Assembly: GCA_011033025.1 (NCBI GenBank)
Contig: WFMF01000006.1
Location: 992,001 to 1,056,000, forward strand
Length of the DNA: 64,000 nucleotides
Direction: 5' to 3'
Origin: Beroe forskalii
Taxonomy: Eukaryota; Ctenophora; Nuda; Beroida; Beroidae
The notes under the pieces are model-generated. The model searched no databases and was not told the DNA's origin. It was given only the letters and a program-made list of their open reading frames with translations. The translations under genes and the position numbers were made by a program. Positions 15,041 to 43,740 of the stretch are shown piece after piece (position 1 is the first letter of the stretch; every line of letters starts with the position of its first letter).

Positions 15041-18000
15041 ATGGGTGAGGATGATGATTCATGGATTTATGACTCAGTTGTTGGGTTCCTCAACTCTCCC
15101 ATATGGATGGTCCCTATTGAGTCGTTTGTGGATCAGCACTGCTTAGGTTGGTATTAAATACGGAGTCCCTGTTCTTACTCTAATAGGCACCAGCTGGTGC
15201 ACCAGTGTCTTTCCATCCAAAACAACAATAATAGGTACCTAGGTATTATAGATGCATCAAATAACTTGAATGATGTGTATTAAATTCTAATATATAAATT
15301 CATTTCATATTCTCTCAGCTTTAATCTCTGAATCTCATTACCTGTTATCTTATCTCTCCAAATTTATTTGTCAGTGTTTGATGGCTCTTCTCCGGACACC
15401 AGTGAGTACACAGAAATCCACACAAGGTACAAAGATCTCGTGGAAGAGCTGCTGGAAAGCTTTACCAACGACCTCCACATTACATCCAAGCAGTTCATTG
15501 GAGGATGTCAGAAAGGTCGAGCAGCAACAGGCAATTACACCCAGGTATACTTCCTTTGATAATTTAATATCCACATTGTAACCAATTTCAATCATTGCAA
15601 TGGTGTCTTTATAATTGCAAAATGCACATATTGGTAGGTAAGCGATTCTGAAAAGCATTTGAATCATGTGGGAAGTGGGAACAAGTAGTCTCGATTGCAA
15701 TATGTTTTCTCCAGATATTGAAGTTTAATTTTCGTTTTTCCAATACTGAATTCTAGAACTTAGGATTTTTAGAAATTGTGTGAATGTTTTGAGGATTTAT
15801 AATTGGTAGTCGGACATTTGTCCGACACGGACATTTGTCCGACACGGACAGTTGTCCGAAACCCAGTACGAAATTTTGCGGACATTTGTCCGACACGGAC
15901 ATTTGTCCGAAAATCCCATTACAATTTTGTCAAACTTATTGGAAGGAGCCTATCACTTGTCCGACACGGACATTTGTCCGAATCAGACACAGTGTTAATG
16001 AGGTAATCAATAGTCCTCAATAATCGTCTGCGGGCTCTGATAATATCTGACCCACTTGGCTCTGGGTGGCTCTGGGTTCAGATGATTGACGCAGCTGTCT
16101 CCTGGTGAGTTTGAGGTCTGTTAGTGCCTGCTCTGCTTTCGGGGCGTCCAGGAACTTCCAGAGAGTGGGTTTGGAGCATGACAGCATGGGGTTCAAGCCG
16201 TAGTGCCAGCCTTCCGCAATGTTGGAGGAGCGTGGAAGGAGACACAGGGAAGCGTCGTGCTGGTTCCACATGTCGTGACTGAAGGTAGGAGGTGTGGTCG
16301 AACTCGAGGTCCCAATCCAGGTTTCGACTTCATCGAAGAAGTTTCTGTAGAGGGTGGTGGTCTTTCCAGGAAGAAGTCCGTAGAACAGAGGGAGATGAAT
16401 AGTGTTGGGGAAGAGCCCGTGTCGCATCATGATCACATTACATCTCGTCCGATCTTGTTAGTATCGGGTCCCATCACTCCATCACCCCGCATCAGTGATG
16501 GGGTGATGTAAAACCTAGGACTGGTTCCACAGTAAACACAGCAGTTCCCCTTTCCTTTTGAATAAAATTGTGTCTGACTTTCGGACAAATGTCCGAATTC
16601 GGACAGTTGTCCGACACGGATATCTGTCCGAATAGCTAATTTCAGGTGTCGGACAAATGTCCGTGTCGGACAAATGTCCTAGAATCTTTATAATTTACCT
16701 TTTCTAGGGCATGTTCGAGTACGTGTTTGCCTCAGTCAACTTTGACCTCTTCAAAAGTATTATGGTGCGGCACAATGCTTCACTGTCGCTTCAAGCATTG
16801 CAGATGATTCGTGGAGGTGAGTGATATAGACAGCATATGTTACCTTACCCACACTTAGTCCAATTAAATTGACCAATCAGCTTGATTGTTGACCGTGAAC
16901 TCGTGCTCTGTCGCTCTGATTTGGTTAATTTCAATAATGCACTAATGCAGTGATGACAGTTCATTAATCGAAAATCACAATGAGGTTATTTGAGTCGGCC
17001 TACCATGTACTTCTTAACCTGGCAATATGTTATCAGGTAGTGCTGAAGGCGCAGAAGATCTCGAGGCAGAAGTCATGAAATTGTAAGTTTGTTTAAATAG
17101 AGTTATGTGCATTGCAGAGCTTGGAATCGTTTCAAATGTAAAACGTGCCATATATCGTACATTTGTCTCATGAAAATTCCCCCCTTTAACGCGTCGAAAT
17201 TAGTGATTTGACCCATCAAATGTCATTGCATGCCCCATGCCCATTGTATTGTATTGTATTGTACTGTATTGTACTGTAATGTTTTTTATGCATGGCATCA
17301 TCTATATTATTCTTCTTTCAGTTCAGAGCAGGAGTTCCAGGCGTATGTTATTTTCTTGATGATATTACACTTCTCTAATTGATTAAGAAACTACGAGGAC
17401 ATCCTAAAAATCAATTAAATATGAACCACTCGCATATTTATCAATTTAAAATTATCGTATCATACTTTTTTCAATAATATTCGATAACTTCCAGCGATTC
17501 TATTTAAAATGTCTGAACTGCCCTTATTCAGCCACCGTATAGAGTTTGACGCCAACACGGTCAAGGAAATGGCTGATCTCGAGGCAGCCCTGGTTAAGTC
17601 CCGCATAGACTGCGAGACGTTGCTCAAGGACATTGAGAAGGATAAGAGTAACTTGGTGTCGACTCTTGAGGAAGCTAGGTCGTTGTCAGCAGCTGGGACT
17701 AGTGACGGGGGAGTGCCTAACTTGTACCCAGAAATACCTGCAGGTTCGACTGATATCGGTATCTGAATTTTTCCACAAAACCGCCATTTGTACGTGCGCG
17801 ATCGGAAATTTGAGAATGATTCTTGTTTCTCAAGGTCGCGACACCTGCGTTACACAGGTTGCTGGCAGTGACACAGGTGTTGCGAGTAGAGTAAATTAAA
17901 AGAATCATTCTAAAATGTCACATACCTGGATTAATATGAATTAAAATAAGCGGTGCGAACGGGGTCGAACTAACGATAACTGAATATTGATTGTAATTCG

Positions 18001-24000: not shown

Positions 24001-27000
24001 TGGCAGGATTTTTGAGGTTAGGGTCCTGCAAAGTGAGCAGCCTACGACAGGGCTCTGGTGACGCAGCCCAGCAGGGTCCCGGGGCCCACGAAAAATGTGA
24101 GAATAGGGTGTTCTAGACTGTTTTTTGCAATAAAGAAATAGCCAAGAGCAGAAAAATTGAGTTGAAATATATCAAGTCTATTCCGAGGGGGGCCGCAGCC
24201 CCGACGGCTCTCCCCGCAGGTCACAGCCCCTGCTAGTCCTTGTCAAAGCGCCTGTCTTCGTAGCAGACAGTATTTGTTTCTTCTAAGCAGGCAGTAGTTC
24301 TGTCTTCTGAGCAGGCAATAGTTCTGTCTTCTGAGCAGGCAGTAGTTCTGTCTTCTGAGCAGGCAGTAGTTCTGTCTTCTGAGCAGGCAGTAGTTCTGTC
24401 TTCTGAGCAGGCAGTAGTTCTGTCTTCTGAGCAGGCAGTAGTTCTTTCTTTTGATCATGACTCATGACTCTTTCTCTGGGTGTAATATTGGAGCCTATCT
24501 GCTCCTCAGAAATTTAGGCATTGATGAAGAAGAATAACGTAGAATAAGTCCACCTGAGACAACGGAATTTGGAAGGATTTTTCGCCCACTGAAAAGTAAA
24601 TGGTTTTGGAATCTGCGGTGGTAGAATGAGCTGTTGAATAATTGTAAACAACAGCAGTTTCAGTTGGAGGAATGGTGGGCAGGGGAGCACAAGGCAGGGG
24701 TCTGGAGGAGCTGCTGTGACACGTGAAGATTTGGGCGCGAGAGTAGTTGAGGGGCGGCACCCCATACCCCTGACTACATGTTATTGTAACCTCCCTGCCT
24801 GCCATGAAGTAAGGCACGTTACTGGGGTTGTGGAATGTTCCCTGACCCACTTGGAGGTGCTCTAGCTCACATACATCTCCCCATGCGTGTGGCTCAAAGA
24901 TCCGGAGATCACTAAACATGTCCAAGGCGACCGGACGCGAGAAATCTGAGAAATCCGAGCTCTCTTGTCCGTAAGAATAGCCCCTATTTCGAAATCTCTT
25001 CAAGCTATACCCGAACCATCCATCCCAATCATTGTAATCTCTGTAGATTGCGTAAGATTGGTTGAATAATTCGTCACTAAACATAGTGCTGCTCACTGAC
25101 TTTAATCCGTACTGGTTTTCGACCAATGTTGGAGACTCGTTGCAGTTTTCACGTTCCGAGGATAATTCACGGCCAGCTGCCATGCATGCGTGCAACGGGT
25201 GTTCTGATACGATGCTCACGACATTATCCTCTCCCCGGTAATTAGCGATGTCTGATCGTGCTATCCTCCACAGTTGATCTGATGACCCGTTACATGTTGA
25301 CCAAGTGAGACTTGGCAAGTTCCTTGAGTCAGACTGTCTGACGCACGTTGCTATGGAGAGGCAGCTGGACCAATCGCTCCTGTTAGAAATCATGAGAGTG
25401 TTTGATATGTGGTATCCTTGATCTCCAAACTTGTTTCTAACGAGATCGCTCAGATTTTGATGGTATTCCATTTCCATGCAGCCCCGATGAAAACTAACCA
25501 CTCGTCCACCTGTGTGCCTGCCCCTCAACATAGATCCAGCACCAGTGTCATTGTAAAGTAAACATTCCCATATTTCATTCTCGAAATAAGATATATAATC
25601 ATAGGTGAAGACTTTGCAGCTCCAAAAGTATGTACAGTATTCCCAGCAGTCTGTAAGTTCATACGTTATTATGCGATTAAAGAAGAAAGGAGCCTTTGAT
25701 ATAACGTAGGGGTAGGAGTCTGATTCCCATATCCACCCACAGTGAGCGAATTCTTTGATAAAATCCCTTCCACTCATGCTCTTGATCGGGTTGGATTTTG
25801 GAAAAGTTGGTGCGTTGCAGAGAGTCATGTTACCTGCTGCACCATTCTTACCTTCCCCCAGATTCTTGGGATGTAGTCGGACCGACTGATCCTTATCAGC
25901 ATAACTCAAGGACAAACACGAAAGGATCAACACTACATACATATTCAGGATCAAATTCTTATTGATGGTTTTCGTGTGACGAACGATTGCATTAAAAATA
26001 GAATAAGAAAATGAAAACGAGAGCTTGATAACGCGAATGAGAAATACAATTAAAAAGCTACTCAAAATCAAGTTGATTTTGATTAGCTTTTTAATTGTAT
26101 TGCTCATTCGCGTTGTCCGAAGCTGAGATCATCATCATGGGTTTTGCAATTTGTAATGTTATAGTTAATCAAAAAAGGGTAAAGTAGTTTAATATGATAT
26201 TTTTATTCGACAGAATAGAGACCCGCACTTGAATTTCTGCGTAACAACGTCTTTGAAGGACTTTGCCCCTGTCCCCTGCTGGGGCTCTACCCCTGACCCC
26301 TGCTGGGGCTGTACCCATGTCCCTTGCTGGGGCTGTACCCCTGACCCCTGCTGGGGCTGTGCCCCTGACCCCTGCTGGGGCTGTACCCTGTCCCCTGCTG
26401 GGGCTGTACCCCTGACCCCTGCTGGGGCTGTACCCCTGACCCCTGCTGGGGCTGTACCCCTGTCCCCTGGTGGGGCTCTGCCCCTGACCCCTGCTGGGGC
26501 TGTACCCCTGTCCCCTGGTGGGGCTATGCCCCTGACCCCTGCTGGGGCTGTACCCCTGTCCCCTGGTGGGGCTCTACCCCTGACCCCTGGTGGGGCTATG
26601 CCCCTGACCCCTGCTGGGGCTGTACTCCTGTCCCCTGCTGGGGCTCTACCCCTGACCCCTGGTGGGGCTATGCCCCTGACCCCTGCTGGGGCTGTACCCC
26701 TGTCCCCTGGTGGGGCTCTACCCCTGACCCCTGCTGGGGCTTTGCCCCTGTCCCCTGCTGGGGCTGAACCCCCGTCCCCTACTGGGGCTGTACCCCTGAA
26801 CCCTGCTGGGGCTGTACCCCTGACCCCTGCTGGGGCTCTACCCCTGACCCCTGCTTGGGCTGTGCCCCTGACCCCTGCGGGGGCTGAACCCCTGCCCCCT
26901 GCTGGGGCTGTACCCCTGACCCCTGCTGCGGCTGTGCCCCTGTCTCCTGCTGGGGCTCTACCCCTGACCCCTGGTGGGGCTGCCCGGCTGCGCCCCGAAA

Positions 27001-27646
27001 ACAGGTGTTTGATTAATTGGAGCACGTGCCAAAATGCACGAGTTTTTTTCTTTTTTTTCGGGTGGGATTTTGACCGGATGTGAATTCGTCCGGGTGGGCT
27101 TTCGTAAGGGTGGGCTGCACCATACACGCCCATTCCTCGCGGGATTTACTCCACTTCATCCGTTGGTGGGCGTGAAACTAATTTCAGCCTGCAGCTCCCT
27201 CAGGGTCCAAGTGAACAGACGTTAGAAGAACGGAGACAATACTGGCTGAAGAGAAAACAGGAAATCGTGGAACTCAAGAAGAAGGCTGCTTTAGAAACGC
27301 TTCAAGTTCAAGAGGTATTATCCGACCATTTGAATATTGAGTTGGTTTATTTGATCCATTATACTTAAATTACATATGTGCAATTTGATGATTACCGCAT
27401 CTATGTTTATTTAAATTCTTTTTATCGTTAATTAAAAAAGACCAAATAAGAGAGGGCTTTATGGTGACATATGCGTTGCATTCCCAGGAGTCGATTGGGC
27501 GTCCTAAGTCTGCCCGCGTAGCTAAGCGAGTGCTGAAGGAGGGCGAGACTCCGACGGACCAGGCGGACGATGAGAGTCCGGACAAGTACCCTGCCATGAG
27601 TCAGGCCTTGGCGGACGCTCTCAGACGCGAAGTTGTCAACAGATAA
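15041..27646 (+). CDS. CFAP36: Cilia- and flagella-associated protein 36 (CFAP36/CCDC104), 11 exons
   Basis: Exons: 15041-15146, 15375-15544, 16708-16816, 17037-17082, 17322-17342, 17532-17743, 19250-19332, 19700-19789, 23518-23619, 27195-27314, 27488-27646. Together they make 1218 nt, 405 residues, in frame across every junction with GT-AG introns. The N-terminal exons encode the BART-like domain: WIYDSVVGFLNSPIW, then VFDGSSPDTSEYTEIHTRYK, then NFDLFKSIMVRHNASLSLQA, all close to human CFAP36 as I remember it. The middle is acidic and proline-rich. The end has a charged helix (EERRQYWLKRKQEIVELKKK) and finishes ALADALRREVVNR, like the vertebrate C-terminus. The family protein sits in cilia and binds ARL3 through the BART-like domain (established knowledge). 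The vertebrate protein is about 340 residues; the extra length is in the linker. The acceptor of exon 10 could instead be 27204, and exons 6 to 9 are the least conserved. Confidence 0.9.
15805..16686. mobile_element. Small Mutator-like (MULE) element in CFAP36 intron 2
   Basis: Flanked by a 9-bp direct duplication TTTATAATT (15796-15804 and 16687-16695), the length expected for Mutator-like elements. The ends hold inverted arrays of CGGACATTTGTCCGACA. The core (16020-16436) carries a degenerate transposase fragment on the minus strand. The element ends 21 nt before CFAP36 exon 3. Confidence 0.65.
16017..16436 (-). pseudogene. MULE-type transposase fragment
   Basis: The 139-residue frame shows two blocks in family order. 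One is LPLFYGLLPGKTTTLYRNFF, resembling the conserved leucine-proline-K-T segment of MULE catalytic domains. The other is IAEGWHYGLNPML followed by EQALTDLKLTRRQ, resembling the family's C-terminal N-x-E-x-W/F-H-x-x-L block. The region between them is much shorter than in intact transposases and the DDE catalytic set is absent. It is an internally deleted, inactive remnant lying between the inverted arrays of the element. Recognition is from memory, without a search. Confidence 0.5.
17744..19249. other. CFAP36 intron 6
   Basis: Holds a 99-bp mini-palindrome at 17813-17911 (AGAATGATTCTT ... AAGAATCATTCT, with a CACCTG / CAGGTG stem inside) and a dispersed repeat piece at 18630-18785. No other exon is supported. 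Confidence 0.5.
18630..18785 (+). repeat. Dispersed repeat (three copies in window)
   Basis: The word set TTCGAAAATAT, CAATATTACCC and TTTCGTTCCTCATAA with ATATCTCGTAAGGT recurs, diverged, at 57300-57475 and partly at 59155-59235. The family is unknown. Confidence 0.5.
19784..19927 (+). repeat. 35-bp minisatellite starting at the CFAP36 exon 8 donor
   Basis: Four copies of a unit containing CTTCAGGCATTTCAAACG and AAGGAAATGTTTTGTG. The first copy begins inside exon 8 as CCTCAG|GTATTTTTCAAACG, spanning the splice donor. Copies 2 to 4 carry GC at the equivalent position, so only the first donor looks functional. Confidence 0.8.
20490..20800. repeat. Degenerate array of GTCTGACG / GTCAGAGACACG words
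   Basis: Roughly 30-bp units with cores AGTCTGACGTAC and TGTCAGAGACACGTAG, strongly diverged, in CFAP36 intron 8. Confidence 0.6.
21130..23040 (+). repeat. GGTACC satellite with 940-bp higher-order period
   Basis: The core unit is about 17 bp, TTAACAACGGTACCACG with variants, in two arrays (about 21135-21780 and 22098-22670). Each is followed by the same non-repeat tail (AAATTAAGCAAGACTA ... CATGCCTCACTGGTAATTAT), so the whole array-plus-tail is tandemly duplicated with a 940-bp offset (22100 against 23040). It lies in CFAP36 intron 8. No coding sequence. Confidence 0.85.
23620..24242. other. CFAP36 intron 9, proximal part
   Basis: No exon is convincingly supported. An exon-like stretch after CCCCGCAG at 24220 runs into a minisatellite and lacks a donor, so I left it out. 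Confidence 0.4.
24245..24451. repeat. 24-bp minisatellite
   Basis: About eight copies of a unit with core GCAGGCAGTAGTTCTGTCTT, just downstream of the 3' end of the nested minus-strand gene. Multiples of three keep the frames open, producing spurious minus-strand repeat peptides. Confidence 0.85.
24506..26107 (-). CDS. Intronless PAN/lectin-like/sushi protein, nested antisense in CFAP36 intron 9
   Basis: A single open frame of 533 codons. The likelier start is the internal ATG at 25942 (residue 56). It opens MYVVLILSCLSLSYA, a good signal peptide, whereas the upstream part lies in a hairpin and is Lys/Ile/Phe-rich. Seen in order: a PAN/apple-like region (about 118-212, with CWEYC, SCKVFTYD and ECLLYN); a cysteine- and tryptophan-containing segment (about 228-330) with SLTWSTCNGSSDQLWRI, resembling a ricin-type trefoil lectin repeat with Q-x-W; and a sushi/CCP-like domain (about 412-473, AGREVTITCSQGYGV). 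Several N-x-S/T sites fit a secreted or surface protein. There is no membrane helix at the C-terminus; a downstream exon after the CAG|GTGGAC near 24555 cannot be excluded. It is paralogous to the gene at 34895-38496. The family is unrecognised and function is not shown. Confidence 0.75.
   Translation of the reverse strand: MSNTIKKLIKINLILSSFLIVFLIRVIKLSFSFSYSIFNAIVRHTKTINKNLILNMYVVLILSCLSLSYADKDQSVRLHPKNLGEGKNGAAGNMTLCNAPTFPKSNPIKSMSGRDFIKEFAHCGWIWESDSYPYVISKAPFFFNRIITYELTDCWEYCTYFWSCKVFTYDYISYFENEIWECLLYNDTGAGSMLRGRHTGGRVVSFHRGCMEMEYHQNLSDLVRNKFGDQGYHISNTLMISNRSDWSSCLSIATCVRQSDSRNLPSLTWSTCNGSSDQLWRIARSDIANYRGEDNVVSIVSEHPLHACMAAGRELSSERENCNESPTLVENQYGLKSVSSTMFSDELFNQSYAIYRDYNDWDGWFGYSLKRFRNRGYSYGQESSDFSDFSRPVALDMFSDLRIFEPHAWGDVCELEHLQVGQGTFHNPSNVPYFMAGREVTITCSQGYGVPPLNYSRAQIFTCHSSSSRPLPCAPLPTIPPTETAVVYNYSTAHSTTADSKTIYFSVGEKSFQIPLSQVDLFYVILLHQCLNF
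26022..26113. repeat. Near-perfect 42-bp-arm hairpin
   Basis: AACGCGAATGAGAAATACAA reads inverted as TTGTATTGCTCATTCGCGTT, with AATTAAAAAGCTA/TAGCTTTTTAATT inside, centred near 26070. It overlaps the 5' end of the nested minus-strand gene. It may be a small MITE or part of a promoter. Confidence 0.8.
26242..26990. repeat. 24-bp CCCCTGCTGGGGCTGTACCC minisatellite
   Basis: About 31 copies, GC-rich and itself palindromic (CCCC...GGGG). Because the unit is 8 codons, long frames are open on both strands (plus strand LTPAGAVP repeats, minus strand RGTAPAGV repeats). They are a by-product of the repeat and are not annotated as genes. It lies in CFAP36 intron 9, upstream of the nested gene. Confidence 0.85.
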
Positions 27647-27944
27647 GATAGCTGAGGGAGGACGCAGGGAGACTATTAGAGACGGGATTTGGTGCGCGAT
27701 CTGATATGATCCGGCAAATATTATTATTGTTATACCAGTTGCTAAGATGAGATATACTGCCAAAGCATGTCATTTTGTCACGAAAACGCTCTCATCCATA
27801 TTTGAGTTTCACTTAAACCCCACTACCACGTTTACTTTTTTAGTATGCATTTAGTCTTGATCACGTTGCTGCAATTGGGTAATAGCGATACAATGGAACT
27901 GAGCCGTATTTGTTGCGTTGTTGACACATGGCCCCTTAATCATA

Positions 27945-27950
27945 AATAAA
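27945..27950 (+). promoter_or_regulatory. Candidate CFAP36 polyadenylation signal
   Basis: AATAAA about 300 bases after the CFAP36 stop codon at 27646, a plausible 3' UTR length. Confidence 0.45.
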
Positions 27951-29040
27951 CTTTCCAATTCAAATCATACTGCATATGAACATTATTTAACCATTATTAA
28001 AGTTAATATTGATATTGATCAGTTTAAACTTGACTTTCATGAAGCTGCTCGGCCAGCATTGCCAAACATATGCTCATATGGATCGATCGATAAAACGTCT
28101 AAAATACTGTTCTTTCGATAGAAATTCTATGAACAGTAACTGTAAATTGTGGGCAAATTGTGGGCAATATGAAATGTGTAAAAATATCGATCCCTTCTTC
28201 GATCAATCCATCTGCACACATATGCGGCCATGGTTAAACGTCTGATTCAACGTCAAGATCATTACAAATTTCAATTTGAATTTGCTGTGAGCAGGGTAAT
28301 CTCTAAAATGTTAAAATATTTGTCTGTACAGTAATTTTGATAATGATAAAATATTTATTACGTACCTTAAATTAAAACAGAACACCAACTTATGTTTCAA
28401 GCCGTCATTCCAATTCCAATTCCATGAACGATGAAGTGCAAATATATGCAATTGCAATTCGATCAATTAAATTTAATAGATTATAATTCACCCTTCATAT
28501 TTTGTAAAACACGAATTTGAGATATGAGTTGGCCAGGACGTGTATTAACGATTGACGGTGGTCTTGAGTCCGTAGGTCCCGTGGATTTTGCTCCGATGGC
28601 CATAAAAATTTTAAGGGGGCCTTCCTCGAAATTTCGCTAAGTAACTTAGTGACAGACATACAAGTGACATTCAAAGTGATTCTGAAAATGCCATGCAGAA
28701 ACATTGAAAACTGGCGGAGGTATGATGAAAAGTCCACTTGCTCATTTTGGCAAAATGGCAAACTGAGATATAAGCGATTTTGCGTATTTTTGCTAACTTA
28801 AAGTTAAAGGAATGACGGCTTTGCTGAGACTTTTTTTGTAAATTAATACATTACATTTCAACGAAATCAGGGAGTTTTTAGTTTCAAGTTTTAACTAAAG
28901 GAGTAAATGATTCAGCTGTGAGAAATCAGAAATAAAATGATTCACTGGTCAGGTTCTGTCGTTGGCAGTCCCTCGTGAGCTTGAAAATTGAGTTTGATGC
29001 ACCGTTCGTGATTGTCAGACGCCCGACCAGCTGACAAAAG
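27951..29040. other. Intergenic between convergent CFAP36 and RSPH14
   Basis: Contains a possible small inverted-repeat element bounded by AAGCCGTCATTCC (28399-28411) and GGAATGACGGCTT (28809-28821). No target duplication was found. Nothing else is recognised. Confidence 0.4.
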
Positions 29041-29044
29041 CTGG

Positions 29045-29825
29045 TCGGAGAGCTCGTGTAACGCTGCGTTACGAGCTCGTGTAACGCTACGTTACAAGCT
29101 CATCTAACACCGCTTTACGAGCTAGTGTAACGCCGCGCTACGAGCTCGTGTAACGCTACGTTACAAGCTCGTGTAACGCCGCGTTACGAGCTCGTGTATC
29201 GTCGCGTTACGAGCTCGTGTATCGCCGCGTTACGAGCTCGTGTAACGCCACGTTGCGAGCTTGTGTAACGCTGCGTTACCGGCTCGTGTAACGCTGCGTT
29301 ACACGCTCGCGTAACGAGCCGGTGTTACGCCGCGTTACGAGCTGGTGTTACGCCGCGTTACGAGCTCGAGTAATGCCGCGTTACGACTTTACGAGCTCCA
29401 GTAACGCCGTGTTACGAGTTCCTGTAACGCCGCGTTACGAGTTCCTGTAACGCCGCGTTACGAGTTGGTGTTACGCCGCGTTACGAGTTGGTGTTACGCC
29501 GCGTTACGAGTTGGTGTTACGCTGCGTTACGAGCTCGTCACGCCGCGTTACGAGCTCGTGTAACGCTGCGTTACAAGCTCGCGTTACGAGCTGGTGTTAC
29601 GCCGCGTTACGAGCTTTGGTGCTACGCCGCGTTACGAGCTCGTGTAACGCAGCGTTACGAGCTCGTGTAACGCTGCGTTACGAGTTCCTGTAACGCCGCG
29701 TTACGAGCTCCTGTAACGCCGCGTTACGAGCTCCTGTAACGCCGCGTTACGAGCTCGTGTTACGCCGCGTTACGAGCTCGTGTAACGCTGCGTAACAAGC
29801 ACGTGCAACGCCGCGTTACGTGCGC
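29045..29825. repeat. 23-bp palindromic GTAACGCCGCGTTAC minisatellite
   Basis: About 34 copies of GAGCTCGTG plus GTAACGCCGCGTTAC. Both parts of the unit are palindromic (GAGCTC, and GTAACGC/GCGTTAC around a C). It sits between the 3' ends of two convergent genes. Confidence 0.85.
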
Positions 29826-30036
29826 GACACATAAAAAATGTGGTAAGAGCGAGTCAGACACAGACAAAGACTGGAGAAATTGCGCAAAGTGACTACCCCA
29901 CCATTGGTAAAGGTTCAAACTTGAAGATCAACCTTGAAGTTGAAGACTAAGCTAATAATCAGATATTGAGATAACCATTTTCATTTTTGATCTAAATACC
30001 ATTTTCACATCGATGTATATTTACATAAAATCATCA

Positions 30037-30067
30037 TTTATTTTTGCAATTGCTAATGAAATTTATT
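30037..30067 (-). promoter_or_regulatory. Candidate RSPH14 polyadenylation signals
   Basis: Two minus-strand AATAAA hexamers (30037-30042 and 30062-30067), roughly 200-230 bases past the RSPH14 stop. Confidence 0.4.
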
Positions 30068-30267
30068 TTTTCTTGTAAGAGGGGATAGGGGATGGGGGGT
30101 TGTGGGACGTCTGGGAGTTATAAGATCAAATAAGAGTTCTGAGTGGGGAGTTCCTAATTTCATGTTACTGTCTCTTTACAAAATTACAAGGGTGTATTGG
30201 CAATGGCATGGAGTACCACTACCAATGTCTGTGATCAATATTTTCAGTGAATCAGAAAAAGAAGTGT

Positions 30268-33200
30268 TCATGGCTTCCACGTGATCACTTTGATTGCAGT
30301 TGTTGTCACCTTCTCAATCATCGGGCCTCCTTCAACATGAATCTTCTCCAGCTGAAAGGTGGGCTCAGGTTTACTGTTTATTGTTTAATTTACACTCTTA
30401 TGGTATGGTATGAAACCATGTAAGCATGGCATCAGCTTATGACCAAAAATAATATATTCATTGAGTTGGGCATGGAAGTTCTACCCTGATCCCTGGCATA
30501 AATTTGTTACAAAATATAATTACAATCTAATAACTCAATTACAATAGATTTATAGAGTTAACTTTTACTCACAATTGGTACAATCTCTGCAAGTTGTTTC
30601 CTTCCTTGAGGAGCTTCTGCCAGCATAGTTATAGCCTGAAATCATGGTAGATAAAGAAGCAGAATTCTACTTATAATCACATCAAAATGAGAAATCTGTC
30701 GAAAATCGCTTTTATGACGATAAGCTAACGACTCAGTGCTTCAGTGTTTTTGGACATTCGGAATTAGAATTTTATAGAATGACCTTATATCTTTTAGTAA
30801 AAAAACCCAAATAGTCTTTAGAAAAAAAAACTGTAACAGGTAAACTAAAAAAATAGTTGTTCTGAGAAAATTGTTCAACGCCATAGTCCATTGTCTATTG
30901 ATATATCCACAAAAAATAGCCAAAATCCGGGGAGAAACCCCTTTTTTGGACCCATTTTCTCCCGAATTGGGGTACAAACTCCAACCGGCAATATCTCAGT
31001 TTGTGATTGAGATGTAGGTCGAATAAATACACTAAACCTTCAGGTACCAGGCTGATGACGAACATTGCGCAGGAGTAGCTACTTTCTCAAAATTTGCGAC
31101 TTACCGCTTTGTCTAAAATCTGTACATATCCGCCCTGATGCAGCCTTCATGCTTCAATAAAGAATAAACGAACTCTAAACTCTTTTCATTGGATGCAACT
31201 ATTCAATATGTCCTTTTAGTGCAATTTGAATGCCTTAGAACTGGCAAGAAATCTCCAGAGGGGGCTAGGAAGGTGGAAGAAGTTTCACATGATCAGGAGT
31301 GTTCTAGATTTATCATTCGCTCCTCTGAAATGCCCACATTAGTAGATTCTTTTCACAGCAGCTGTTCTCTCAACGAATATCAGGTTACAATTTGTTTTCT
31401 TCTTAGTCTCAGCCGTAATTTTCTGAGCATATCATATTATCATTTCTACGCAATTTTTTACGCAATTGGTTTCGATTTTGGTTCTCGATTCAATTGAATA
31501 TTTGGGATTGTTTGTGCCGCCTGGGGTTCTATGACATTCTATGGCTGCCGTCTGAATTAAACTTACGTCTCATGGGCATCTATCTGAGAGGCGTCTGTTT
31601 TATCAGGGGGCATCTGTTTCATCACAGACATCTGTCATGTCCTCAGATGTATCAAGGCTGCCGATAACTTTATTGTGACAAGAACTGCAGTTGCTCTAAA
31701 AAAGGGTATTTCAGTGTCAAGCACCATTTTGGGGAAGGACAAATAAAATACCAACATGTAGCCAAGTATCAAAGGAAGATAAGATATTGCAGTAAACTAC
31801 TACCCAGCCGGGACATGCAATATAGAATGCATCCCAGAAGATAGCAAATACACCTGCAAAGAAGATGGGAGTAAGGAATGCCGCTACAACTGGCAGGGAG
31901 AGGATTGCAACAATTGCTTTAATTAAGGGTATTTTGGGGAGCAGTGTCAAACACCATTTTGGGTAAGGAAACACATTAAAACAATCAGCAGATACCAACA
32001 TCACAGTCAGGGAATCATACTGCGTATCAAAGTAGAAGAATATCAGCACGACTACAGAGGAAGAATATACTCCAGTACTTACTGGGTTGAGGAAATTCTC
32101 CTTCCTCGACCCAGTGATCAGTCGGAGTGATGGCAGAGAAATTTACTGCCAGGGAAAGCATAAGTGCTTGTGACAAGTACTGCAAACCAGTTGAAGGTAA
32201 ATACACCTGTTGTTCAAAGGGAGATAAGATATGTGGCGAAAACTATTACCCTGATGGAGTCTGTAACAAATACTGCAAACCAGTTGAGGGTAAAGATCAT
32301 GTAGCCAAGAGGGAGATAAGATATTGCAGTAAACTACTACCCAACCGGGACATGCAATATCGAGTGCATCCCAGATGACCGCAAATACACCTGTAAAGGA
32401 AGATGGAAGTAAGGAATGCCGCTACAACTGACAGGGAGAGGATTGCAACACCTGCTCCAAAGGGTATTTTGGGGAGCAGTGTCAAACACCATGTTTTCCC
32501 AACAGAAAATTATTACTGTAGCGAAACAGGTGAAAAGGTGTGTATCGATAAGAGAAGCAATCTTAATAAGCCCTTAGGGTCCGGAACTGCTTCTATGATA
32601 CTTAGCGCTAATGAAATTTAACTAGTGGAGTAGAAAATGTAGCCGAGCAAGAAATTAAAGGATTTTCCTTGAGCGTCAGTTGTCAGGAAGAGATATTGAA
32701 TAACTGTTTCAATTGTAAATATATATTCTTTATTTTGAATTGATTGTAGTTATTGTAACTTCTGTTATTTAATTTATTTGATTTTGTATATGCTAGTTTC
32801 ATGACTCCTATGTTCAATCCAAAATCTAAAATTACAAAATAAAGTGATTCAACACCCATTTTTATAGTCCTGGGCCTTTTGGGCTGAACTCATACCCAAA
32901 ATTAGCATCAAGTTGTAAAGTATTTTTTTTGTTTTTTTATAGTATAGGGAAGGTTGTAAGGAACCCTCGTGTGGCCCTATCCTATAAGGTTAAGGGAAGA
33001 GCCCATTTCATAAAACGGGTAAACTCAATGAATGCATGATCGACGGGCGACGTCCGACACTCCGACGGGCGATGTCCTTCCGGGGCGATGTGCCGATGTC
33101 CTTCCCTTCATCGAAGGCGCAAAGGTGACGTCCAAATGTGGGACGTTGCGCCGCGCGCGCGAGGGCAGGGTAACATCCTACGAATTACGATAACGAAATG

Positions 33201-36200
33201 GATGATGGTTACCCCTTGGATTTGTTTCCCAAATGGCAAATTTGAGGTAATGGCTGAGCACTCAAGCAAGGGTTATTGTTTTCGTTGATGTCTTTACGAC
33301 CTTCAGATTTCATTCATTACGCATCTAAGTGTATTTCATCCATACCTGACTGAAAAGCGAAAAGAGTTAGGACTTTGGAATCATTTTATACTCCCAAGAA
33401 TATGCTGATTTGGCATGGTTTACTGCCCTCGTTGAGTTCTTTACGGGATTATGCATAGATCTTAAAAAGGGTTTTTCGTCCCTAACTCAAAAACGAGAGG
33501 TTAGGATGTAACCATGGTCTACCCCCCATAATGTGCTCATTATTTATGGTATTAATTATAATTATTTGGCATGGATCTCAATCAGAAGCTGAGATATTGT
33601 CGGTTGGAGTTTGTGTCCCAATTCGGGAGAAAAGGGCCCAAAAAAGGGTTCCCCAACTCTGATTTTTATTTTGGGAAATCCCGAAAAACGTTAGTAGACC
33701 TTTTAATTAACCTATTTAATTCACAGTCTGTTACAGTAGTACTCTTACTATTTGGTGATGGGTGTTCCACGATGAACAAAATACAACAAAGAAGAATTGA
33801 TGAGTACTGAAGCCAACAAACCTTGATGACGTTGAGTCTGACATCGTCAGTATCATCAGTTTGTAGGAGAGACATGAGAGCATCCACCGCACCTGCTTTG
33901 ATAGATTCCTGCTTACCCTCCGTAGTGATGCCGATACTGAAAACGGTCATTGATAAGGAAATAAATCTCAATTTGTCCAAATCTCACCTTGAAATTTTTC
34001 AGATAATTTGAAATCACCCGTTAATTAGAAAATAAATCATAGTTTTGGTATTTGTAACAAACTTATACCTTATTGGCCTTTAGTTTTCAACCGGCCTTTT
34101 TTAAACGGCCCTATGGACAAAAAACGAATCATTTTTGAACAATTTTTAGCAGCCCCCTGGACAAAAATTGTACGATGTAAAACGTAAACTGTGATTTTAC
34201 TTTTATTTACAAGGTTCCAACTGGACAAAGCCAGCAGTGTCCATATACTGGACACAGCCCTGAAAAGTTTTCAAGTTTTCAGTGCTGGAATCCTCAACGA
34301 CCTTCGTACCCATTGTCCACTGTTTCAGTGAAAACAGTGAAAATCCGGACAATGATGAAGGTCGTTGAAGATTCCGGTTGGGAATACTCAATTATTTTCT
34401 GATTTTCATGCAGTTCCCTGTAAGAATTTTTCTTTGGAATTGAAAATACTTTTTACTTCCAAAACATAAATATAAAAATAATTTCAGCAGCAAAAAACCA
34501 GCGTCAGAGTTTTAGTCACAATAAGGCTATTAAGAGTAAGGGTGAACTATAAGATCGTGAGAGCATGAAATGACAAAATGCAAAGGATTTGATTAAAACA
34601 CGCATGTTTAATGAAATTTTAATTGCATACTGTGGGAAAGAAGTCCTAACAATGAAATGTTAGAATCTCGACAGACGAAACGCAAATGGTACACGAGTAA
34701 TAGGTGGCTGAGACGGTGCCACTTTCGTAGCGCAACATGGTCAATTGATGACTTCGAACTGCCTATTTTTGAGCAAAATGCGTTATAACAGCTTGCATTG
34801 TAACCACAACCACGCTGCACCACGAATATAACTTCACAGAACGCCTGTTCAATCTTTATGTACGTTTAAACTCTCGCCTGTTGGATATTGAAGCATGTTT
34901 AAAACTTGTCGTACGCTAAGAACTGCGCTATTTATTTGCAGTGCCCTTCTCGGTTCAATCCGTTCCAGGAACCCAGGCAACCTTCAATTCAAGAAGAATC
35001 CAGGCAACAAGGTGCCGGGCGGCAACCGCATCCACAGCCACCATAACATGAACAACTTTCCAAACCACCACGACAGACTACAGAAGGAAAACAACGACAA
35101 CAAAAACAACAACGAGGCTCTGGCTCCTCTGCCGCACAAAAACATGGACATCCTCAACGACCACGAGCACTCCTCGCACTTCAAGTTCACCTTCACTTCC
35201 AATACGTAGGTGTCTCAAGTTCACCTTCACTTCCAATAGGTAGGTGTCTCAAGTTCACCTTCACTTCCAATAGATAGGTGTCTCAAGTTCACCTTCACTT
35301 CCAATAGGTAGGTGTCTCAAGTTCACCTTCACTTCCAATAGATAGGTGTCTCAAGTTCACCTTCACTTCCAATAGGTAGGTGTCTCAAGTTCACCTTCAC
35401 TTCCAATAGGTTGGTGTCTCAAGTTCACCTTCACTTCCAATAGGTAGGAGTATCAAGTTCACCTTCACTTCCAATACGTAGGTGTCTCAAGTTCACCTTC
35501 ACTTCCAATACGTAGGTGTCTCAAGTTCACCTTCACTTCCAATAGGTAGGTGTATCAAGTTCACCTTCACTTCCAATAGGAAGGTTCTCAAGTTCACCTT
35601 CACTTCCAATACGTAGGTGTCTCAAGTTCACCTTCACTTCCAATACGTAGGTGTCTCAAGTTCACCTTCACTTCCAATACGTAGGTGTCTCAAGTTCACC
35701 TTCACTTCCAATACGTAGGTGTCTCAAGTTCACTTTCGCTTCCAATAGGTAGGTGTATCAAGTTCACCTTCACTTCCAATAGATAGGTGTCTCAAGTTCA
35801 CCTTCACTTCCAATAGGTAGGTGTCTCAAGTTCACCTTCACTTCCAATAGGTTGGTGTCTCAAGTTCACCTTCACTTCCAATAGGTAGGTGTCTCAAGTT
35901 CACCTTCACTTCCAATAGGTAGGTGTCTCAAGTTCACCTTCACTTCCAATAGGTAGGTGTCTCAAGTTCACCTTTACGTCCAATATAATAGGTAGATGTC
36001 TCAAGTTCACCTTCACTTCCAATAGGTAGGTGTCTCAAGTTCACCTTCACTTCCAATACGTAGGTGTCTCAAGTTCACCTTCACTTCCAATACGTAGGTG
36101 TCTCAAGTTCACCTTCACTTCCAATACGTAGGTGTCTCAAGTTCACTTTCGCTTCCAATAGGTAGGTGTATCAAGTTCACCTTCACTTCCAATACGTAGG

Positions 36201-39200
36201 TGTCTCAAGTTCACCTTCACTTCCAATAGGTAGGTGTCTCAAGAGGTTGGAGATTTACCTAATGGCAGGAAGTTATTATCAGAAGCTTTCGAAAATCACG
36301 TGATTAATTGACCATTACTATTAGCACATGCTATTTGAAAACTGCCAAACAATCAGCCTCGTGTCGATAATCCAATATAGCCTTAACCCTCCACGATTCA
36401 CCAGCATCAGTTCTACAACACAACAAACACCACTAGGATTTTATCCTACCCTCCGCCGCGCGCACTTTTTTCCTCCAAATGTCCGAGTGTTGCGCGCAAA
36501 GGATGGGAGAAATCCATCTAAACAGCCCCCCTCCACCAGCATCATTTCTAAGCTTTTAGTCCTTTGCTGGCACCCTGCTCCGCTAAACAAAGTCTCAGAA
36601 GACTGAGGAGCGGTCAGTAGACTGCTACTTTCCACTGGTATTCTACCAAAAATATAGTCTAAACAAACACCCCTCCACCAGCATCAGTTCTACGTCCTTC
36701 TGGGTGGCAGCAGGGACGGCGTCCTCACGGATGCCAGCTGAGATGAAGGGGCAGCTTCTCCCTCACGTGGGGGACGAGAATATGCTGATTGCAGGGAGGG
36801 AGGTCACCGTGCCCGCTACCTACAAATTCTCAAGCACGGTAACTGTCTTATTCTTAGCACTGCTTACGTATGGTTCGTGGTCTGTAATTCAGAATTCTGG
36901 GATAATATTTTAATTCATCCGCATAAATTCTTTGGTTTTGGACCTGTTTTTTTTTTAATTCGAGCTTGACAAACTAATTGAGTAATTGCTAATCCCTGGC
37001 ATCTCAGGAACCCCCAAAAGACGAAGAGCCGGCTGACCCCATCATTTCCAGGCTGCTGGATTGCTACACTATCGGGGAGCGACCTCCACTCCGACGCTTT
37101 GCCCTTCGCACCGTCCCTTCTGACACTCTTCAGAGGTGCTGTTTTACTGTTTTAGAATATATATCTTAGCAATATGTGCTAAAAGCATAAGGGGTATGTA
37201 TGACCCTAATCGAATTGGTCGATCGATCAACTTCACTCGATGGACTAATGTGTTATACAGACCCCTTATTTTAAGCAAACTTTTACAATTAGCGACGAAA
37301 ATGATGCAAATTGCGGTTTTGTAAGTTTTGTAAATTTTGTAAGTTTGTACGGACTTTTCATCACGTATTTACCCAGGTGCTGGTACTACTGCAAGTTTAC
37401 GGAGAAGTGCCAAGTGCTGTCCTACAACCTGACGAGCGCCATGTGCCATCTCTTCCCTCGGATTAGGGAGCAGAATCACGTGAAGTTCGTTACTGCTGAC
37501 ATCCTCACTTTCTCCCGGCACTGCGTGGAAGGGCGACTTTGCAGGGATAAGCTCCTCGAACGAATACCCCAGAGAAACTCTAGTTTCTACATACAAAACA
37601 CCACCACACAGGACTGTTTGGGGGTAAAGACAAAACCGTCCAGCCTCACCTGGGGGCCGTGTCAACAGGCAGCCAGATGGTTCATTACTCTGGACTTGAA
37701 GGGTGATGACCTCTTGGAAAAGGAGGAAAGTGTCATGATATCTCAATACGGAGTCCCTAGAGCCAGTGGGGTGTGCTTGGCATGGTCCCACGAGCAACAG
37801 ACCTTCGTTCCAGCCCCTTCCACGGGCCGAATCACAAAGTTTATGATCGTGCAGCTGGGACTAGCTGAGTTCCCCTTCGAGGATTGTGACATCACCCTAT
37901 CCCCTGCAGTACCCACACTTAAGGAGACCAGCCTCACTGTAGCGCTGAGAGAAGAACCAGCTCCTCTCGCAGACCTGGCGAAGCCTTGCTACATCTTCAG
38001 TATTACCATCCCACACGGCTGGGTGGTGCCGGACCCAGACCTGCCATTCAGACTCTCCGGTGACAATGTTACCATCCAATGTGAGGAGGGCTACGGAGTG
38101 GAATCCCTCGACTTCGCCTCCAACTTCTCCGCAACCTGCTACTCCAACACCACCCTGGACCTGCACTCTGGGTGTCAAGAGATCCCAGCAGCAGCAGCAG
38201 GGACTCTCAGCTCCACCCTGCTCCCCACCACAGCTGCTCAAGAAGCACGGAGCCCAACTCTACGCCTGATCCAGGGAAGTGATGCGGTGACACAGGTTCT
38301 ACCCAAACACAACCCCTTCGTCCTGTCCACCATAGGACTGGGGGTGTGTGCCATGCTGCTGACTGGACTCCTGGTGCTTATTGCCAGGTATACGGACTGG
38401 CTGCTCACCCTCCTGCCTAAGAGAAAGATGGAGAAGACACCCTCTCTTACTAACATTATAGTGGAAAAGATAGAGTACCGTAGCCGGGGGATTTAGGAAA
38501 GTAGTTATCTGACTGGCAAGAGTGTGAGAACATTATTCCTCGTGTTTCAAAAATAACAAAAAAACATTAATTGACCCCACTTACTGAATTCGCTTAACAT
38601 TTGATTATCGCTGCTTTTGAATTATTCATGTGTATCAGTGTACTCAAAAAAGTGGATATGTCTAAGACATGATGATACGATAGCTGTCTTGTGATTTGAT
38701 ATTACAACTGATTACTGATAGCTGATAGCTGATTACTGAATACTGAGATTATGCCTTCAGAAATCACAATGAAACACACAGATATGAACGGATCAAATCA
38801 CAGCACTTCTGCACTTTTTGTTTGTAGATTAAAATACCTCATAAGAGCTCCGGCAGCTTGAGCCTTGACGTGTGAGCTGGGGTCGGCGAGTAGACTCACT
38901 AGCACGGGGACACACCCCACTTTCACTGCAGTCTTCTTACCGTCCAGCGGGAAACTGGGAGGGGAATGAGAGGTTATCAATGAGTGGGTTACCGGTTCTT
39001 ATCCCACAAGGAGCCAGCCGAGTGGGATAAGTTACTTATTCCACGAGGGGGAGCCGAGTGGAATAAGTCTAAGGTAACCTACTATGGCACTTTCACGGTA
39101 CACTTCTTACCGTCCAGCGGCAAACTGGGAGGGGAAAAGTGTTTTTATAGCGTTGATGTAGAATAATACCGTTGATATGTAGAATATTTGGGACGGTTTG

Positions 39201-40212
39201 GGATAAAATTTGGAAATACTTCTTGATGATCCTAAAGAATATTTTAGATTAGCCGGCACTTTTCGATAAGCAATGCTTCCTCGGCAGTAGGTTTATCCAG
39301 CTACGGTGATTGGGGTAGAGATACAGGGCTAGGGTTTGGCAACTATGGGGTGAGGGGTAGCTGGTGAAGAAAGGGAAAGTGGAGCTGATGATTTGAGACT
39401 ATTCACTTTACCAACTCACCTGATATCCATGATATCTCGTGCAGCCTTGCCTCTGATCTGCCAGGATTCATGTTTGAGTAGGGTCGTGAAGACCTCAATT
39501 CCACCGGCTTTGAGGGCCTGGTCTGTGTCTACCTTCATGCAGTAGTGCAACGTGTCCAAAACTAGCTCCTGCGAAGTTCCGGTATTTGATTAAAGACTTC
39601 AAATTAGACATTTGTTTTCAAAGAAAGTAAACTGATTTACTTCTTAATTTCATTTAAAATTTTAGTCATTCTGTCAAACCATTGAAGAAAATATCTCCCA
39701 ACTGAAAGAAAAACACCACTTCACAGAACAGACCTTGATATCGTCTGTTTCCGTTTTTAGCTTCTCTACTAACTTCGCTATAAGGTTAGCAGAAACTATT
39801 CCTTGGGCGCCATTCACAGTGTGGCTTACACTTTCAATAGCCCTGTGAGGGGAGTTATTCAGAAAATTCCAAAAAATATTCAACCTATTCAACTTTCTAT
39901 GAAAGTAATTTGGTTTGTAAAAACATTTGATAAGTATGATACTCTACGTTCATGCGTAGAATAATGCCAAATATTGAAAGCCTTGTGCCACTGCCGTGCT
40001 TTTCCTGCTTTACCTAACATACCTATGAGACATATGTCTAGCATCATCGTGCTTATCATCGAACAGAGCTGATATGGGCTGAATAAGTCCGAACTCTAGG
40101 ATTGAGTCACGGCCGATTGCGTGATTTGAGCAAATGAAGAGCACTTCCGTTGCTTTCCACCGCACTGTTCCGTCCCCATCGGCAAGCAATTTCTTCAAAC
40201 TCTTTGCCATCC
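30268..40212 (-). CDS. RSPH14: Radial spoke head 14 homolog (RSPH14/RTDR1), 5'-incomplete, 7 exons
   Basis: Minus-strand exons in transcript order: 40023-40212, 39734-39842, 39420-39568, 38838-38954, 33822-33936, 30573-30635, 30268-30351. All junctions are GT-AG and in phase, giving about 275 residues. Armadillo-type repeats are visible: TVRWKATEVLFICSNHAIGR, NGAQGIVSANLIAKLVEKL, GGIEVFTTLLKHESWQIRGK, VPVLVSLLADPSSHVKAQAA, DALMSLLQTDDTDDVRLNV. The end, AITMLAEAPQGRKQL then AIKVITWKP-stop, parallels human RSPH14. Known role of the family: armadillo-repeat protein of the axonemal radial spoke. The first residues (roughly 70 by comparison with vertebrates) are missing. Exon 1 here starts in phase 1 after an acceptor and lies 46 bases from the homopolymer-run block that begins at 40259. 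One intron (33937-38837) contains a plus-strand gene. Confidence 0.9.
30930..31060 (+). repeat. Dispersed repeat, inverted partner at about 33555-33690
   Basis: TTTCTCCCGAATTGGGGTAC with ACTCCAACCGGCAATATCTC matches the reverse complement of 33570-33680, so the two flank the DSL-like fragment as inverted copies about 2.5 kb apart. The words about a pale first line of AGATATCTC-type sequence resemble those in the 7245-9793 element, but I could not establish a relation. Confidence 0.5.
31750..32590 (+). pseudogene. Decayed DSL/EGF-type cysteine-rich repeats
   Basis: Two partial copies (about 31790-31960 and 32165-32560) of a Delta/Serrate-like DSL pattern: YYPAGTCNIECIPEDSKYTC, then DGSKECRYNWQGEDC, then GYFGEQCQTP. 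The second copy adds ACDKYCKPVEGKYTC and KGDKICGENYYPDGVC. Each needs frameshifts, and in-frame stops occur (a TAA directly after the 31918 region and others). No intact frame exceeds 83 codons. It lies in an RSPH14 intron on the opposite strand. Spacing and the internal duplication suggest a piece of a tandem DSL/EGF gene. An expressed multi-exon gene is possible but unlikely given the breaks. Confidence 0.6.
32600..33821. other. RSPH14 intron, non-coding
   Basis: Contains CpG-rich GACGGGCGACGTCCGACA and a GACGTTGCGCCGCGCGCGCG stretch (33040-33180), similar to 49940-50040, and the inverted repeat partner at about 33555-33690. No gene is seen. Confidence 0.5.
34066..34175 (-). repeat. Dispersed repeat, partner of 5575-5690
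   Basis: The reverse complement shares GGCCGGTTGAAAACTAAAGG-type and GTCCATAGGGCCG words with 5575-5690. Confidence 0.5.
34895..38496 (+). CDS. PAN/lectin-like/sushi transmembrane protein, nested antisense in an RSPH14 intron
   Basis: Proposed exons: 34895-35205, 36682-36838, 37008-37135, 37377-38496. They total 1716 nt, 571 residues, and all phases fit. Exons 3 and 4 are well supported; exons 1 and 2 are less certain. Exon 1 starts with a signal-like helix (TALFICSALLGS) then a His/Asn/Lys-rich stretch. A PAN/apple-like region follows, with RCWYYC, KCQVLSY and MCHLF. Then come a trefoil-lectin-like segment (DCLGVKTKPSSLTWGPCQ), a sushi-like domain (GDNVTIQCEEGYGVES), a Thr/Ala-rich linker, one membrane helix (LSTIGLGVCAMLLTGLLVLI) and a tail of about 37 residues with basic residues. 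The predicted topology is type I. It is a paralogue of the intronless gene at 24506-26107. The family is unrecognised; a surface recognition role is inferred only. Confidence 0.65.
35183..36243 (+). repeat. 34-bp minisatellite containing a splice-donor motif
   Basis: About 31 near-identical copies of a unit holding AAGTTCACCTTCACTTCCAA, then TA(G/C)GTAGGTGTCTC. The first copy is the last 23 bases of the proposed exon 1 at 34895-35205 plus its donor (AATAC|GTAGGT). Later copies mostly read AATAG|GTAGGT, an equally good donor. The unit is not a multiple of three and carries a TAG, so it is intronic. Confidence 0.9.
36385..36700 (+). repeat. Three spaced copies of a CCCTCCACCAGCATCAGTTC motif
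   Basis: Copies lie near 36390, 36528 and 36671, roughly 140 bp apart. The third contains the acceptor proposed for exon 2 at 36682, so acceptor-like sequence is repeated upstream of it. Confidence 0.5.
38986..39140. repeat. Small palindrome plus partial duplicate of RSPH14 exon 38838-38954
   Basis: GGTTACC ... GGTAACC (38987-39079) encloses inverted TTATCCCAC/GTGGGATAA and TTATTCCAC/GTGGAATAA pairs. Right after it, 39088-39138 repeats the acceptor and first codons of the neighbouring RSPH14 exon (CTTCTTACCGTCCAGCGG then CAAACTGGGAGGGG). Confidence 0.75.
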
Positions 40213-40258
40213 CTGAAATAGTTGCATTTCAGGTCATAGCGAAATATGCCAATCTGCC

Positions 40259-43200: not shown

Positions 43201-43740
43201 TTTGGGTTTACCCCAAAAGGGGTTAAACCCAATTTTTCCCCAATTTTGGGAAAAATTTGGGGTTTTTTAATTTTTCCCCCCTTTTTGGGGGGCCCTTTGG
43301 GGGTTTTTTTTAAAAACCCCTTTTTTAAAAAAAGGGGTTTTGGGGGCTTTTTCCCTTTTAAAAATTTTTTTGGGGGGGGGGGAAGGGGGGGGGGGTTAAG
43401 GGTTGGGGGGTTTTTGTTCCCCAAAAAAAAATTTTAATAAAAAAAAATTTTTAAAAAGGGGGCCCCCCCCTTAACCCCCCCCGCTTTTTGGGGGGGGGGG
43501 GGGGGGGTTTTGGGGGGGGTTTCCCCAAAAATTCCTAAAAAAAATTTTTTTTAAAAAAGGGGGGGGAAAAAATTTCCCCCCCCAAATTTTTTTTTTTGGG
43601 GGGGTTTTTTTGGGGGGGCCCGGGGGGGGGGGGTTTTTAAAAATTTTAAAAATTTTTTAAATAAAAAAATAAAAAGGTTTTAATTTTTTAAAGGAAAACC
43701 CCTTTTCCCCCCCCCCCCCAAAAAAAGGGGGGGGGGGCCT
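40259..43740. other. Homopolymer-run block, probable sequence artefact
   Basis: For about 3.5 kb nearly every base belongs to a run of two to twelve identical bases, with abrupt edges into normal sequence at both ends. Natural simple repeats have a unit; this has none. It looks like a badly called consensus or assembly fill. Open frames in it (poly-Phe, Lys, Pro, Gly) are meaningless. True sequence here probably includes upstream RSPH14 exons. Confidence 0.85.

Follow-up and report, generated by a model that had tools for sequence, protein, structure and literature searches.

Two antisense intronic genes of Beroe forskalii are distant members of a dispersed family of predicted PAN and sushi surface proteins

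Two related genes in one family, two unrelated hosts

How do two similar genes come to lie antisense within introns of two different ciliary genes? This question is raised by a 64,000-nucleotide stretch of the genome of the ctenophore Beroe forskalii (contig WFMF01000006.1, positions 992,001 to 1,056,000; hereafter the window), in which one gene (gene 1) appears to be nested in CFAP36 and the other (gene 2) in RSPH14. The original prediction read the two as PAN/lectin-like/sushi paralogues, perhaps brought there by an inverted duplication or by a favoured insertion context. Here we find them to be distant members of a large family of similar predicted genes. As had been claimed, both are antisense to their hosts, which are convergent. 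Their parts are the following.

24506..25942, minus strand: gene 1, a single exon antisense in CFAP36, encoding a PAN - middle - sushi protein of 478 amino acids (hidden Markov model (HMM) match and open frame)
34895..35205, plus strand: candidate first exon of gene 2, with a signal-like start
37008..37135, plus strand: exon of gene 2 that encodes the first cysteine of PAN (LLDCYTIGERPPLRR...), with in-frame AG/GT junctions and similarity to a relative on contig C183
37377..38496, plus strand: last coding exon of gene 2, antisense in RSPH14, with the remainder of PAN, the middle, sushi, a membrane helix and a cytoplasmic-like tail

Gene 1 had been drawn from 24506 to 26107; its open frame and its antisense position stand, as does the BART-domain exon of its host, and the likeliest start is the Met at 25942 (signal-peptide-like MYVVLILSCLSLSYA). 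Gene 2 had been drawn as 34895-38496. Its coding core, 37008-37135 spliced in frame to 37377-38496, is retained, with RSPH14 exons on both sides, while 34895-35205 is unproven as a first exon because its obvious donor leads to the wrong frame for the later exons.

The two proteins are 20% identical (BLASTP E = 6e-11). An HMM built from 54 other open reading frames (ORFs) of the family, among them a double unit in tandem and an N-terminal fragment, and with both window genes excluded, matches gene 1 at 7.5e-101 and gene 2 at 1.3e-34. The paralogy first seen by eye thus holds at the level of profile similarity.

Further members are numerous. Protein searches of the assembly (216 Mb, 1134 contigs; the window is part of the contig we label C691) yielded at least 85 matches with gene 1 and at least 56 with gene 2, and a PAN_1 search at least 140 of all kinds. 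From the protein, PAN_1 and pattern search matches we chose, not at random and leaving further matches unfetched, 92 stretches (90 fetched and two from the window). All but one (L108) match the family HMM, and 75 carry PAN to sushi in one frame, giving 73 distinct ORFs on 63 contigs. An ORF was counted as full when the match of one frame to the 455-position profile began no later than 110 and reached at least 395, so that the first PAN cysteine may be absent, as in the frame of gene 2. From PAN to sushi, 72 of the 73 ORFs show no visible intron, gene 2 being the exception. We conclude that this genome does hold a dispersed family of about 70 or more predicted genes, most of them with a single exon. 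A limited literature search, with most subscription papers and all preprints outside its scope, found no description of the family, which by such searches is undescribed.

On a tree built from the 73 ORFs, L010 (C850) and L011 (C305) cluster with gene 1, with support of 0.98 and 1.0, and L100 and L104 with gene 2 (0.86 for the group of three, 0.04 for L104 as partner). The two window genes fall in separate clades, at a distance greater than that of 88% of all pairs. The closest search matches likewise lie on other contigs: C850 and C305 for gene 1, and C132 and C183, neither of them in the tree, for gene 2. Copies made by an inverted local duplication should be each other's nearest relatives, and these two are not. 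By this comparison of sequences they are distant family members and no local pair, and the proposed inverted duplication is not supported.

Several other loci were seen along with the family. More family matches occur on C691 outside the window, at 440 kb (with internal stops), at 960 kb and at 1082 kb (L109, split over several frames). Close inverted pairs on one contig (L020/L022 on C132, L049/L050 on C110 and L091/L092 on C425) are either real inverted copies or joined haplotypes. The match was confined to PAN in L095, one of the 16 matching stretches outside the 75, and in L085-L089, outside the 92; we took these as other PAN genes. Tandem PAN arrays in long open frames (L085/L086/L089 on C438, and C216 at 260-291 kb) form a separate type of PAN gene in the same genome.

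Domain architecture

The order of PAN, lectin-like and sushi parts in the original prediction is upheld for PAN and, with weaker support, for the other two parts. PAN_1 of Pfam matches 43 of 49 members at E<=0.01, and three of four chosen members pass its curated cut-off. Across the 49, cysteines C97, C101, C107, C125 and C153 are invariant and C66 is present in at least 90%, their pairing not being established. Compared with solved structures, the family profile finds microneme PAN structures at 7e-6, and sushi modules of the GABA-B receptor and factor H, in register, at 0.17-0.29. The predicted sushi module has two invariant cysteines (C356 and C387) and two more (C406 and C416) in at least 90% of the 49 members, one of which matches Pfam Sushi at E<=0.01. 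A variable linker precedes PAN. Between the two modules lies the middle domain, in which one pair of cysteines and a Trp are invariant (a C...C...W core). RicinB_lectin_2 matches this domain in two of 34 members (best 0.0012), and its profile found no convincing structure and no lectin in PDB. The assignment from sequence is thus well supported for PAN, moderately supported for sushi and weakly supported for a ricin-type trefoil middle.

Termini and selection

A signal-like start, hydrophobic after the Met, was found in 60 of the 73 ORFs. By hydropathy, 32 end in a terminal hydrophobic stretch resembling a glycosylphosphatidylinositol (GPI) signal, and a further 22 have a helix with a tail after it; these counts come from a tally separate from the tail classes labelled on the tree, which were set by eye. 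Thr/Ser-rich stretches stand ahead of many tails. The window pair covers both classes. The original prediction saw a helix and tail in one of the two proteins and no membrane helix in the other, and suggested that they could be a secreted/surface pair. Gene 2 has the helix and tail. Gene 1 has a signal-like N-terminus and ends in a hydrophobic stretch of the type counted in 32 members. Because of this terminal stretch its protein may well be held at the membrane instead of being released, and the proposed pairing is not sustained.

The ratio of non-synonymous to synonymous substitution rates (dN/dS) ranged from 0.14 to 0.98 over 15 pairs of members and was at most 0.63 in 14 of them. When 13 pairs, some with a member in common, were pooled for each region, it was 0.84 in the linker, 0.60 in PAN, 0.47 in the middle, 0.29 in sushi and 0.58 in the tail, from N- to C-terminus. 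Gene 2 also has a second copy on C132, 95% identical in protein, for which dN/dS was 0.09 over 338 codons. The DNA match to this copy spans 37435-40238 of the window and therefore includes RSPH14 exons. We first assumed the copy to be an allele, but its dS of 0.21 is high for one, and it may be either an allele or a segmental copy. Together, the values for pairs, regions and gene 2 indicate that the genes are under constraint, strongest in sushi and in gene 2. The regional gradient would fit surface proteins that are under selection and vary most in their outer part.

Proposed role and spread of the family

On balance we think it probable that these genes form a dispersed PAN-middle-sushi family of some 70 or more members, mostly single-exon, whose proteins are exported and tethered to the surface with an outer binding part. 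Tethering would be by a GPI anchor or a membrane helix, and the sushi module would act as a conserved stalk near the membrane. The faster-evolving PAN and trefoil-like middle may then present, on the outside, a surface that binds a glycan or a protein, be it of microbes, prey, other cells or the animal's own matrix. The repertoire would have grown by duplication of gene-sized units, and copies in large introns may have survived best in the antisense orientation, which would interfere least with splicing of the host. From the anchors, the modules and the selection gradient we infer a role of the repertoire in recognition. A more specific version, which we put forward tentatively and hold to be rather improbable as it stands, is a ctenophore-specific receptor repertoire of two classes, GPI-like and transmembrane, with PAN, trefoil and sushi modules, that serves non-self or kin recognition and was spread singly, at times into introns in antisense.

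Several points weigh against a family of tethered binding proteins. The family is a prediction from genomic sequence, and nothing in the sequence analyses indicated a ligand. Taken singly, the window proteins score below the Pfam cut-off for PAN (13.4 and 14.6 against 21.4 bits), and gene 1 found no relative in PDB (best 0.92). A predicted structure of gene 1 with gene 2 had a predicted local distance difference test (pLDDT) score of 29, so the trefoil and the spatial order of modules are unsupported by the model. Unrelated Pfam entries match the middle of single members, for example PH_SLA1 at 0.0054. Broken or incomplete frames make up 16 of the 91 matching stretches. Clustering at 90% identity reduces the 73 ORFs to 69 groups, so that a number of copies may be alleles or duplicates made in assembly. 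A clear signal-like start is lacking in 13 of the 73 and either tail type in 19, with anchors called by a hydropathy window and not by a predictor. One close pair, finally, gave the dN/dS of 0.98.

The proteins might instead be structural, as secreted or surface components of mucus, an egg coat, a cuticle-like layer or an adhesive, with diversity in the number of genes instead of the choice of ligand and with no part in recognition. PAN and sushi modules are also known from structural and adhesive proteins, and the Thr/Ser-rich stretches before many tails would suit such a role. We nevertheless judge it fairly unlikely, given that 54 of 73 ORFs have membrane-type C-termini, that most members carry each module once and without long repeats, and that PAN evolves faster than sushi.

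Somewhat less credible to us is that the single-exon genes are mobile cargo, spread by retrotransposition or by capture in a long interspersed nuclear element (LINE). The lack of visible introns and the wide scatter over contigs are what such a history would leave, and gene 1 and its nearest copy, on C850, are alike over a gene-sized unit only: the match begins about 220 nt ahead of the ATG, ends about 80 nt beyond the stop codon and leaves out the CFAP36 flanks. At three of 29 loci whose flanks were surveyed, a frame that we take to be a LINE ORF1 lies directly 3' of the family gene.

L014, 2830-3657, same strand as the family gene: LINE ORF1-like frame
L020, 2689-3642, same strand as the family gene: LINE ORF1-like frame
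L018, 2664-4004, same strand as the family gene: LINE ORF1-like frame

Against such transport, Pfam gave no match for these three frames, and the one beside L020 is absent at its near-copy L022 and so arrived later. No poly-A run was seen within the first 130 nt past the stop in the 24 members inspected. The introns of gene 2 and of its C183 relative, moreover, are at different positions, so that gain of introns is as possible as loss.

Hosts and genomic neighbourhoods

The following features define the two hosts.

15332..15553, plus strand: BART-domain exon of CFAP36, host of gene 1; open frame (Pfam 2.2e-10; PDB CFAP36 7.8e-7)
27108..27643, plus strand: two open frames beyond gene 1, presumed to be the last CFAP36 exons
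33830..33937, minus strand: RSPH14 exon, downstream of gene 2 in host sense (ends approximate)
38840..38957, minus strand: RSPH14 exon, upstream of gene 2 in host sense (ends approximate)
39419..39589, minus strand: an additional RSPH14 exon within an open frame (PDB match and open frame)

RSPH14 was identified with three exons from both sides of gene 2, joined by hand; its top natural match in PDB is 8j07_T (3.8e-22), above which scores an engineered repeat protein. With RSPH14 exons on both sides, the coding exons of gene 2 lie whole within one host intron. The frames flanking gene 1, at about 23.5 and 27.1-27.6 kb, are presumably CFAP36 exons. They had no match in Pfam, and their best PDB match (0.038) was to a designed protein and not convincing. 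The nesting of gene 1 within CFAP36 is thus a likely arrangement that rests partly on the assignment of these frames to the C-terminus of that protein.

Repeats surround both genes. Directly upstream of gene 1 is a palindrome of 45 nt with arms 93% complementary (26027-26117), one arm of which is mostly absent from the alignment with the C850 copy. Minisatellites of 24 bp lie on both sides of gene 1, at 24252-24454 (8.5 copies) and 26266-26982 (30 copies), and the C850 copy, too, carries a unit of the former at its 3' end. At 35181-36243, about 31 copies of a 34-bp unit repeat the end of the possible first exon of gene 2, including the donor-like site GTAGGT; the presumed intron would therefore carry about 30 donor-like copies. 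A long run of homopolymer blocks at about 40250-43600 looks like an assembly artefact; the C132 match ends at 40238, and similar sequence occurs at its other end.

The flank survey covered 29 loci, or 27 distinct genes, and ten frames were compared with Pfam, of which five matched nothing; this is a small sample that favours exons which can be recognised. A third nested member, L032, is antisense between two PLAT exons. L013 adjoins the end of an amidase gene and L023 an exon of Nup160; L011 adjoins a DEAD helicase exon whose match, at E=4e-4, falls short of the Pfam cut-off. The C850 copy of gene 1 is situated past what, judged by eye, is the end of a DDX21-like gene. The recognised neighbours, the helicase excepted, run antisense to the family member. 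LOXHD1, with PLAT repeats, is a protein of stereocilia, and the PLAT host could in that respect be added to the two ciliary ones. The origin of the window pair by an inverted local duplication or a preference for ciliary genes is nonetheless highly improbable, despite the mirror-image layout within two convergent hosts: the tree and the nearest relatives set the two apart, and the other members that could be read lie, in this small sample, in or by unrelated genes. The ciliary location of both is probably incidental. Nesting as such seems ordinary for a ctenophore, given the 2357 nested intronic genes in 1654 hosts reported for Hormiphora in the available part of the published account (PMC8527503).

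The assembly also holds a COX1-bearing contig of 13.3 kb with 17.4% GC in its first 10 kb; COX1 is open under translation table 4, and ARAGORN with the bacterial code found no tRNA. The available part of a published account describes ctenophore mitochondria as using table 4 and having no tRNAs, with 17.3% GC in B. forskalii (PMC6991124). The contig thus reads best as that of a ctenophore, perhaps a beroid.

Comparison with known systems

By Pfam and by structure profile, the family resembles PAN/apple proteins such as the apicomplexan micronemal protein 4, microneme antigen L2 and microneme protein 5, factor XI and plasma kallikrein, and HGF; among these structure matches, E was below 0.01 for the microneme proteins only. 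It differs from them in that most members have a single PAN, then an unassigned middle and a single sushi-like module; those proteins are laid out differently. With complement-control (sushi) proteins such as factor H it would share a four-cysteine module in the right register near the C-terminus. Factor H-type proteins differ in that the family has a single such module, matched by Pfam Sushi in one of 49 members and in PDB at 0.17-0.29. Within ctenophores, the immune-type gene sets of Mnemiopsis (PMC11797021) are alike in being expanded sets of exported or receptor-type multidomain proteins. They are named there as SRCR, CTLD, TIR2 and NACHT, and the main text has no 'apple', and the whole word 'PAN' once, as an author name. 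The nested genes of Hormiphora are a parallel for the location, as genes within single introns of others are common there; the available part of that account counts them and makes no mention of such a family (PMC8527503). The window adds that paralogues can come to nest in unrelated genes without a functional link to their hosts. Ctenophores are among the first-branching animals, and little is known of how they recognise microbes or each other. A family that is predicted to be on the surface and under selection, with its own domain order and a more variable outer part, would offer a concrete set of candidates for such recognition.

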